Origin: Pseudomonas laurentiana
GTDB taxonomy: Bacteria; Pseudomonadota; Gammaproteobacteria; Pseudomonadales; Pseudomonadaceae
Length of the DNA: 64,000 bases
Direction: 5' to 3'
NCBI RefSeq assembly: GCF_014648275.1
Contig: NZ_BMQU01000007.1
Location: 124,001 to 188,000, forward strand
Made by a program: the position numbers and the translations under genes. The notes below the pieces were generated by a model. It worked only from the letters and a program-made list of their open reading frames with translations. It had not been told where the DNA came from and did not search any database. Below, in pieces: positions 3,746-5,553 of the stretch (its first letter is position 1; each line of letters begins with the position of its first letter).

Positions 3746-3753
3746 ATGCCCTG

Positions 3754-3810
3754 ATCAGACCGCCATCGGCGCGGTCATCAGCGGCATGGCGCTCGGAACC
3801 TTCGAAACTG
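3754..3810 (-). pseudogene. Duplicated 3' end of thyA
   Basis: The 26 bp at 3754-3779 are identical to 4581-4606, which encodes the last residues of ThyA (MTAPMAV and stop). Similarity continues with decay for roughly 30 bp more (about 70 per cent by eye). It is a detached copy of the end of thyA, 827 bp from the intact gene, and marks one boundary of the DUF3077 cassette. Confidence 0.7.
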
Positions 3811-3953
3811 AGTCTTTCAGGCGCGAAGGGATGAGCCCTGATACTCCTGATATCAGTTGTAAAATTTCAGGTTTACGCTCTTTCGGATTTACCCTACGCA
3901 CGCTGCCGTATTTTCTATATTGTTGCGAAGATTCATTAGGTCTAGCTTCCTCG

Positions 3954-4140
3954 GGTCGTCGTTTTCGCGACCGGGTGTGAGAGCCCGTCTGATCTAATGG
4001 CAGCTTTGTCATGGCAGCCGTGCGTGGGCAGACTTCGGTCTGGCCGGGTTCCTAGGTCTCCGGTCTCTCACCCCACGTACGGCTGCCACCCTACTCCTGT
4101 GAGAGGGACTGGGAGGTGGCTCCTGTCTGATCCTAGGAGT
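3954..4140 (+). ncRNA. Folded 5' leader upstream of the DUF3077 operon
   Basis: The stretch before the 32-codon ORF folds strongly. A hairpin with GGTCG/CGACC arms (3954-3958/3968-3972) is followed by a 16-bp stem pairing 4013-4028 with 4072-4087, with a single G-U wobble. The stem encloses a UUCG tetraloop hairpin (4029-4042, CAGAC/GTCTG) and a second arm (CCGG 4044-4047 with 4060-4063), giving a three-way junction. Downstream, 4093-4098 can pair with the ribosome site at 4135-4140. No convincing ORF uses this stretch. I do not recognise it as a named RNA family; a structured cis-regulatory leader is my interpretation. Confidence 0.6.
4135..4139 (+). promoter_or_regulatory. Ribosome binding site possibly hidden in a helix
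   Basis: AGGAG lies 7 nt before the ATG at 4147. It is complementary to ACTCCT at 4093-4098 and also to CTCCT at 4120-4124, while GGGAGG at 4111-4116 could compete for the same partners. Two mutually exclusive pairings are therefore possible. Confidence 0.5.
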
Positions 4141-4146
4141 TACACG

Positions 4147-4245
4147 ATGAACAAGATTGTCCCAGACCCACCAGTTACATTACCGCCCCGCACTTCTGCA
4201 TCGCTGACCACGCTGCAATCCATGGATAAGGGAGTGATGGTATGA
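4147..4245 (+). CDS. Short leader-proximal ORF (32 aa), unknown
   Basis: 32-codon ORF starting MNKIVPDPPV, rich in Pro and Thr, with an AGGAG ribosome site 7 nt upstream. Its stop overlaps the start of the DUF3077 gene in an ATGA arrangement, implying translational coupling. The N-terminus recalls the opening of short Pseudomonas proteins (DUF6124/DUF3077 type) that often occur in such pairs, so it may be a shortened version of one of these, or a leader peptide. No function can be assigned. Confidence 0.5.
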   Translation: MNKIVPDPPVTLPPRTSASLTTLQSMDKGVMV

Positions 4246-4517
4246 ACAAAGACTCACAAGCAGCGCTTGGCGAGACGGCGGGTGTCGCAAGCTTCATCAA
4301 AAGCCAGCATCCACCTGTAGACCTGTTTCGTATTTCACCTGGCGTCCCCTGCGACTACGCGCTGGAACAAGCATCAACCGTGCTCGGATGTGTACACAGG
4401 CTGATCCTGACGGGTGCTATGGAGGAAGACAGTGCCGCGATCTGGGCAGCCTACTACCTCAGCGGATTCGCCAAGGCGATCATCGATGATGTGGGGCTGG
4501 GGATGAAGAAGGCCTAA
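4242..4517 (+). CDS. DUF3077 family protein
   Basis: 91-residue soluble protein. The core LFRISPGVPCDYALEQASTV, then LGCVHRLILTGAMEED and AAYYLSGFAKAIIDDV, matches the DUF3077 pattern, a small mostly helical family largely confined to Pseudomonas and of unknown function. Translation is coupled to the preceding 32-codon ORF by a 4-bp overlap, and the pair lies behind a long folded leader. The cassette is bounded by copies of the thyA 3' end, suggesting insertion or duplication at this place. Confidence 0.8.
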   Translation: MNKDSQAALGETAGVASFIKSQHPPVDLFRISPGVPCDYALEQASTVLGCVHRLILTGAMEEDSAAIWAAYYLSGFAKAIIDDVGLGMKKA

Positions 4518-4581: not shown

Positions 4582-5553
4582 TCAGACCGCCATCGGCGCG
4601 GTCATCGGCGCGTGGTGCTCATAGCCTTCAAGGCTGAAGTCGCTCGGCTCGATCAGCTCCAGCCACTCAGGCTGGTAAACGCCCGTCTTGGCGAATTCCG
4701 GCACACGGTCAGAGATCACCAACTTCGGCGCGGCCAGTGGTTCGCGCTTGAGCTGCTCGTTGAGCATGTCCAGGTGGTTCTCATAGACGTGCGCATCGCC
4801 GATGAAGTAAGTGAACCAGCGCGGCGTGTAACCGGTCAGACGGCCTACCAGCGACAGCAGTGCAGCCCCCTCGGTGAGGTTGAACGGCGTGCCAAGGCCC
4901 AGGTCGTTGGAGCGGATGTAGAGGGTCAGGGAGATTTCCTTGGTCTCGACATTCGGGTGGAACTGGTACAGCAAGTGGCACGGCGGCAAGGCCATTTCGT
5001 CAAGCTGAGCGCAGTTCCAACCGTGAAACAGGATGCGTCGGCTGCCTGGGTCATTGATGATGGTGTCGACGCACTGACGAATCTGGTCAATGGCCTTGTA
5101 CAGCACCACGAACGCCTCACCGTCTTCTTCAGCTTCGGCGATTGCCTGGAAACCCTGGCTTTGAGCCAGTGCGATAGCAGCCGGGTTACTCAGCGGAATG
5201 CGCTTGTACGCCGGCCACTGGCGCCATTGCACGCCATAGATTTCACCCAGGTCATCAGCGCCCTGACGGAACGGGTTGGCCAGCCACTGGGCATTTTCGT
5301 TGGCATTCTGGTCCCACACCTTGCAGCCCAGCTCGCGGAACTGCGCGGCGTTTTTCACCCCGCGCAGGAAACCGACCATCTCGCCAATGGCAGACTTGAA
5401 CGCCAGCCGGCGAGTGGTGATGGCCGGGAAGCCTTCCTGCAGGTCGAAACGCAGCATGGCACCCGGAAAACTGATGGTGCGGATGCCGGTACGGTTGCCC
5501 TGCAGGGTGCCGTGCTTGATCACGTGGGCGACCAGATCTAGATATTGCTTCAT
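4582..5553 (-). CDS. thyA: Thymidylate synthase
   Basis: 323-residue ThyA, converting dUMP to dTMP with methylenetetrahydrofolate. Landmarks are [15 protein letters not shown] near the N-terminus, [13 protein letters not shown], the catalytic Cys in [13 protein letters not shown], the dUMP/folate region [13 protein letters not shown] and the C-terminal MTAPMAV. It is longer than the 264-residue E. coli enzyme because of internal insertions, as is common in Pseudomonas. It is the last gene of a minus-strand group with lgt and the TSUP transporter; thyA lies 48 bp after lgt, and the lgt-thyA neighbourship is widespread in proteobacteria. Its 3' end is duplicated near 3754. Confidence 0.96.

Follow-up and report, generated by a model that had tools for sequence, protein, structure and literature searches.

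The chromosome of Pseudomonas laurentiana carries a strongly folded leader RNA in front of a small operon with a DUF3077 gene, and the question is what this RNA is and how it acts on the genes behind it. The window, i.e., the whole 64,000-nt stretch of DNA that was analysed, contains three matches to Rfam 15, one of which is the leader itself: at 4007–4093 (+), it scores 85 bits with the C4 antisense RNA family (RF01695; cut-off 45), and the match covers the full length of the model, positions 1–87 of 87. The other two matches are a Pseudomon-Rho leader (RF01720, 31852–31952 (−)) and an rnk leader (RF01772, 63630–63730 (−)). A sequence-only reading of the locus knew of no named RNA family for the leader and had proposed that it could be a repeated, undescribed cis-regulatory class. 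An unnamed RNA class is ruled out by the RF01695 match, and on sequence grounds, 4007–4093 is a phage-type C4 antisense RNA of a known family, that of c4 of phages P1 and P7. The remainder of the supposition has held in part: the leader is conserved, covarying, and repeated before DUF3077-type genes of Pseudomonas, but it is probably not a cis-only element, because its complementary sites are arranged as in an antisense RNA whose target is its own leader.

The C4 fold is closed by a 17-bp stem, P1 (4012–4028/4072–4088), which encloses two stem-loops, P2 with a UUCG loop (4029–4033/4038–4042) and P3, which bears the b′ loop (4043–4048/4059–4064); these and all other features of the locus lie on the + strand. 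Much of this architecture had been recognized in the sequence-only reading, namely a 16-bp stem with one G–U pair (4013–4028/4072–4087), which extends to 17 bp, the UUCG hairpin and the second arm inside it, and an upstream hairpin at 3954–3972, whose pairs 3954–3958/3968–3972 are formed in the minimum free energy (MFE) fold. The impression of strong folding is borne out as well: the MFE of region 3940–4140 is −96.6 kcal/mol against a mean of −79.0 (sd 4.4) for shuffled sequences (z −4.0), and none of the 200 shuffles folds as low as the native sequence. Compensatory changes in the stems, proposed there as a check, were found among the 26 C4 paralogues of the same genome, where 98.1% of pair cells are formed and 14 of the 28 stem pairs, including all five of P2, show two-sided changes. 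The stem covariation score of the paralogues, 0.381, compares with 0.206 after shuffling and was reached in 0 of 500 shuffles. The model built from these 26 C4s was then used to search other loci, and the loci found with it are excluded from the structure evidence.

Two segments of the C4 RNA are complementary to sites elsewhere in the same leader. In the region of the P3 loop lies the antisense sequence b′, GGTTCCTAGG (4047–4056); it forms 10 bp with the b2 site CCTAGGAGTT (4132–4141), which holds the Shine–Dalgarno sequence AGGAG (4135–4139) in front of the ORF at 4147, as the sequence-only reading had it when it let the 3′ side of the fold run to the AGGAG of the operon. The a′ antisense sequence TCTCTCAC (4064–4071) forms 8 bp with the a2 site, the TGTGAGAGG region at 4098–4106 directly after the C4 RNA on its 3′ side. 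A copy of the a2 site stands upstream of C4: TGTGAGAG, at 4098–4105, recurs at 3976–3983 in the loop of the a1 hairpin CGGG-TGTGAGAG-CCCG (3972–3987), which is complementary to a′. The duplexes have calculated energies of −14.1 kcal/mol (b′ with b2), −11.8 kcal/mol (a′ with a2), and −17.3 kcal/mol (a′ with a1), while a possible b1 site at 3989–3998 is weak (−6.5 kcal/mol with b′). An upstream copy of the locus’s own a2 region, with at least 7 nt in common, was found in 77 of 81 loci, compared with 31% for the a2 regions of other loci. In the MFE fold of the leader, a′ and b′ are unpaired with a2 and b2, so that this pairing is left to another molecule or to another fold.

Upstream of the leader, a putative sigma-70-like promoter (TTGTTG, 3920–3925; 17 nt; TAGCTT, 3943–3948) is proposed from conservation; the generic promoter scan did not list 3920–3948. 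Within the 120 nt searched, TTGnnn-(16–18)-TAnnnT occurs upstream of 60 of the 81 C4 loci against a mean of 4.1 and a maximum of 8 in 50 shuffles; the spacing is 17 in 56 of these 60 promoter-like sites, and a minority of them lie elsewhere in the 120 nt. This conservation suggests that transcription starts near 3954, at the first leader hairpin, rather than downstream of 4090, an outcome that would have spoken against the sequence-only reading by its own account. Further upstream, the conserved motif TACCCTACGCACGCTG (3890–3905) is a candidate activator or operator site. A looser pattern, TA(T/C/A)CCTAC, is present at 67 of the 81 C4 loci when 190 nt upstream are searched, mostly 121–124 nt before C4. 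The genome contains the stricter TAHCCTACGNNNNCTG five times in all, always just upstream of a C4 and thus at only 5 of its 26 C4s; the control has 0.

The operon behind the leader consists of two overlapping genes. Gene 1 (4147–4245) encodes 32 aa, MNKIVPDPP..., a remnant of a KIVPDPP protein that keeps the N-terminus and the ATGA junction of its relative at locus L176 (genome G133). Gene 2 (4242–4517), whose start overlaps the stop of gene 1 in this ATGA, encodes a DUF3077 protein of 91 aa that scores 64.6 bits with PF11275, above the Pfam gathering cut-off of 21. The order C4, KIVPDPP protein, DUF3077 recurs at L177 (genome G015) and at L176, where gene 1 is 90 and 86 aa long, respectively. 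Compared with L176, the distance from the gene 1 start to the gene 2 start in the window is a net 162 nt shorter, a multiple of 3; this shortfall is spread over more than one gap in the alignment, with the start, the N-terminus, and the ATGA junction kept. The 32-aa remnant has no PF19619 (DUF6124) match in Pfam, and even the intact gene 1 of L177 stays below that cut-off (13.8 vs. 27). Between the window and L176, gene 2 has a dN of 0.20 and a dS of 0.99 (dN/dS about 0.2 over 82 codons), and it is therefore regarded as being under purifying selection.

Taken together with the sites described above, this arrangement very probably reflects a chromosomal C4 antisense RNA that would repress its own two-gene operon by pairing with the Shine–Dalgarno sequence of its own leader. 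By analogy with phage P1 and satellite P4, the leader transcript made from the promoter at about 3920–3948 would be processed so that the 87-nt C4 RNA is cut out, and the free C4 RNA may then pair in trans with later transcripts. Its a′ segment would pair with a1 and a2, and b′ with the Shine–Dalgarno sequence of gene 1; translation of gene 1 would be stopped, and that of gene 2 (DUF3077) would stop with it through the ATGA overlap. An early end of transcription, as with the CI RNA of P4, may contribute too.

The structure model of the DUF3077 protein (pLDDT 89) predicts a beta-hairpin and two helices; Foldseek finds no counterpart among solved or viral structures at E ≤ 0.001, and a sequence profile search of the PDB returned, besides DHP1 (E 0.008), nothing more than kinase 2-beta fragments (E at least 0.8). 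NCBIfam has no family for the two window ORFs, gene 2 and a gene-1-type protein have no PADLOC match, and the two PHROGs families found for gene 2 are annotated without a function. Among the open-licence papers searched, DUF3077 is named in one only, a passage of which reports a single-base insertion in the DUF3077 pseudogene PP_RS01475 of a P. putida strain evolved for furfural tolerance (PMC9630843). Small genes that exist in many copies under antisense control, together with several C4s lacking an intact gene behind them, bring to mind type I toxin–antitoxin systems, with C4 as the RNA antitoxin and the products of gene 1 or gene 2 as harmful proteins; a passage of PMC8198154 likewise has icd of P1, which lies in the same operon as c4, inhibiting cell division. 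Such a use would be compatible with the antisense repression proposed above, but we consider it rather unlikely, as nothing in the predicted DUF3077 fold marks a toxin, PADLOC is silent, and at this locus gene 1 is only a remnant while gene 2 is under purifying selection.

Loops and targets vary together from locus to locus. Cross-pairing was computed for 84 loci, namely 79 external loci (without L153) and 14 loci of the own genome after dropping nine duplicates. The b′ helix with the own target has 8.8 bp on average against 5.6 crosswise (z 28), and the a′ helix 7.0 bp against 5.2 (z 15.8), and neither value was reached in any of 20000 permutations. Given the kinship of the cassettes, this and the permutation counts below are not independent probabilities. 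The own C4 is the best or tied best partner of a leader in 39 of 84 cases for b′ and in 63 of 84 for a′, and strictly the best in 24 of 84 and in only 5 of 84, respectively; for the window’s sites, its own C4 ranks second (b′) and third (a′) among the 84. When the set is narrowed to 15 loci whose loops are dissimilar, the own C4 still comes first in 10 of 15 (b′) and 8 of 15 (a′), with z values of −8.9 and −4.9 and again 0 of 20000 permutations each. Loop–target matching is thus strong on average and not exclusive across species.

Within the own genome, a looser first test, which took all 26 C4s including orphans and a single 75-nt target region, gave a blurred picture (ranked by summed energy, the own C4 came first or shared first place in 10 of 26). 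In a second test, which treated the target regions separately and was confined to the 14 intact genes, the own C4 gave the lowest summed energy among all 26 C4s for 12 of the 14; one of these 12 is a tie with the C4 at C16:32093, whose downstream start codon appears lost, and several leads are small, that of the window’s C4 being 0.4 kcal/mol. The mean energy with the own C4 is −25.8 kcal/mol against −16.3 kcal/mol when C4s are permuted among the 14 genes (0 of 20000). Most intact cassettes therefore have their own matched pair of a′/b′ and target, and each should regulate mainly itself. The two exceptions are C1:376087 and C13:162912; the leader of the latter pairs better with an orphan C4 on the minus strand at C3:4013–4099 (L005 in genome G000), which has no gene behind it, than with its own C4 (−28.5 vs. 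−23.1 kcal/mol). This orphan is a candidate trans-acting C4.

The same data bear on whether the leader might work purely in cis, as an attenuator or a ligand-sensing riboswitch within its own transcript, with no free RNA acting in trans. The strong folding would suit such a switch, as would the position of C4 within the leader of the gene to be controlled, 43–55 nt before the matched reading frame in 79 of the best 80 KIVPDPP loci. We nonetheless judge it very unlikely, because a′ and b′ stay unpaired with a2 and b2 in the MFE fold, the conserved part of C4 is mainly its stems, and the variable b′ loop tracks its target; moreover, known members of the family are treated as free antisense RNAs in passages of PMC12197685, PMC8198154, and PMC8546580.

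Conservation outside the strain, another check suggested from the sequence, is evident from the genomes of relatives and from loci with KIVPDPP proteins: C4 was found in 70 of 115 genomes of relatives, the own genome included (65 of 71 within the genus), and in 0 of 14 control genomes. With the model derived from the 26 own C4s, all of the best 80 KIVPDPP loci (of 202 relatives in the genome collection) prove to have a C4 upstream, 79 of them with at least 58 bits; the weak one, L153, has 29.8 bits and a C4 match that overlaps the protein match. The query proteins were taken from C4 loci, and more distant relatives may associate less. A close relative of the own KIVPDPP proteins, from P. defluvii (L090), is 94% identical, and all titles among the best 80 are Pseudomonas except one, ‘Pantoea sp. 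Ap-967’ (L134), whose cassette is of the Pseudomonas type and whose genome is possibly misnamed. As regards gene 2, PF11275 was found in one of 143 genomes of the class, the window’s own, and relatives of the protein in 102 of 149 genus genomes, the own genome included. Of the 14 PF11275 matches in the own genome, 12 have a same-strand C4 upstream, with the nearest C4 at a distance of 91–189 nt from the domain, whereas the two on contig C8 have none; at other genomes’ gene-2 loci, C4 stands upstream in 27 of 29 and was not found at L202 and L204. C4 is thus not obligatory for these genes.

The reverse approach took 29 best-C4 loci regardless of the downstream gene. Seven of them were not parsed by the search pattern, and 12 of the remaining 22 have an ORF of at least 60 aa behind C4, although one such ORF is probably not in frame. 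What follows C4 is a mixture of DUF6124, DUF3077, unnamed ORFs, and one Bro-N protein, and the role of C4 in Pseudomonas is thus not limited to DUF3077. The Bro-N gene, antirepressor-like, lies behind the C4 at L052, a locus of a different genome in the genus, and L054 has a similar protein; Bro-N is a domain of phage antirepressors, and its position behind C4 connects it with ant of P1. The own genome contains 26 C4 RNAs above the cut-off. Among relatives, the first count scored no more than 34 candidates per genome, and the ten genomes at this limit have 36–55 each on recount. Close pairs and triplets of C4s occur in the own genome (for example, C9:95263/95709, C1:240916/241250, C3:3517/3785/4013, C17:120807/121201), with some of the genes lost. 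Such clusters suggest rapid gain and loss of cassettes.

The neighbours of the window’s cassette are a lysA-type decarboxylase gene and thyA. The cassette of L176 also lies beside thyA, with 85.9% DNA identity over 1392 nt, and a search for the lysA side in 23 genomes gave, besides the own genome, one 68% match and otherwise short weak ones. The 3′ end of thyA is present twice in the window (3752–3811 and 4582–4640), one fragment lying between lysA and the C4 cassette, a vestige of a duplication or insertion next to thyA. Three phage records have DNA similarity to the cassette stretch; in the Pseudomonas phages L205 (PP003922.1) and L206 (KU708005.1), the C4-like stretch lies inside annotated ORFs, and the records bear annotations such as integrase, DNA primase, AlpA, or Rha. 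One plasmid record holds a gene-2 relative of 40% identity, and no plasmid match was found for a gene-1-type protein. That the cassette is a functionless remnant of a prophage or satellite is highly improbable: C4 RNAs are known from phages, the similar stretch occurs in the two Pseudomonas phage records, which are small (10 and 17 kb), and in a short uncultured phage record, and gene 2 matches a PHROGs phage-protein family at 6.7e-22 with relatives in the phage genomes behind PHROGs, but against this stand the chromosomal neighbours with the same thyA site in L176, the dN/dS of gene 2, and the lack of any gene-1-type or gene-2 match at E 0.01 among the proteins of 50,697 phage records.

The RNA family itself is already known; what was not found described is its chromosomal expansion with matched loop–target pairs before DUF6124/DUF3077 operons, as a search of the open-licence literature returned no account of C4 copy number, or of C4 together with DUF3077/DUF6124, in Pseudomonas. 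To our knowledge, C4 control is known from phages and satellites with one C4 each, and here there are 26 C4s in one bacterial genome and up to 55 in relatives, with loops and targets varying together. It is conceivable, and we offer it tentatively, as a view with less than an even chance, that a phage immunity RNA has become a large chromosomal family of self-specific antisense repressors in Pseudomonas, one for most DUF6124/DUF3077-type cassettes, in which loop and target evolve as a matched pair and copies are largely insulated from each other. Copies without a gene might then persist because they silence other cassettes, or related elements that enter the cell, in trans, and together they might make up an RNA-based network of immunity or dosage control. 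The set is a natural collection for studying how RNA–RNA specificity diversifies while function is kept and what degree of cross-talk is tolerable to a cell. At the same time, it provides a regulatory handle on the DUF3077 and DUF6124 families of Pseudomonas and could explain their silence, if they are silent in ordinary culture.

Among known systems, the CI RNA of satellite P4, which we take to be a member of the C4 family, resembles the present RNA in having complementary sites both upstream and downstream. According to a passage of PMC4825925, it is cut from an untranslated transcript, pairs with the upstream seqA and the downstream seqC, and ends transcription early. P4 controls its replication genes by termination, whereas the downstream site in the window also covers a Shine–Dalgarno sequence. 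Bacterial copies of C4 were already grouped by Weinberg et al. (2010) in RF01695 and the c4-a1b1 motif, in Proteobacteria and phages, and passages of that text (PMC2864571) make no mention of DUF3077/DUF6124, copy number, or matched loop–target variation. The hallmarks of C4 found at the present locus are the model score, the closing stem with two covarying stem-loops, and the downstream sites complementary to a′ and b′. Of the upstream target copies, a1 is clear and b1 weak.

In phage P1, the C4 RNA is processed from its leader to a short stable RNA by RNase P, and its control region has the a/b site layout, the upstream target copies a1 and b1, and the coupling of icd to ant. Passages of PMC12197685, PMC8198154, and PMC8546580 have c4 repressing ant, with pairing that involves the ribosome-binding site (PMC12197685). 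The window’s RNA differs from c4 of P1 and P7 (immI operon c4-icd-ant) in being chromosomal, in having tens of copies per genome and its own conserved upstream motif, and in the genes behind it, which are of the DUF6124/DUF3077 type in place of icd and ant; judged by P1 immI, no antirepressor gene was found behind the C4 of this locus, where DUF3077 stands instead. What the two have in common is the RNA family and its fold, a first gene whose ribosome-binding site is surrounded by antisense sites and which is followed by a second gene, and a copy of a target site upstream.
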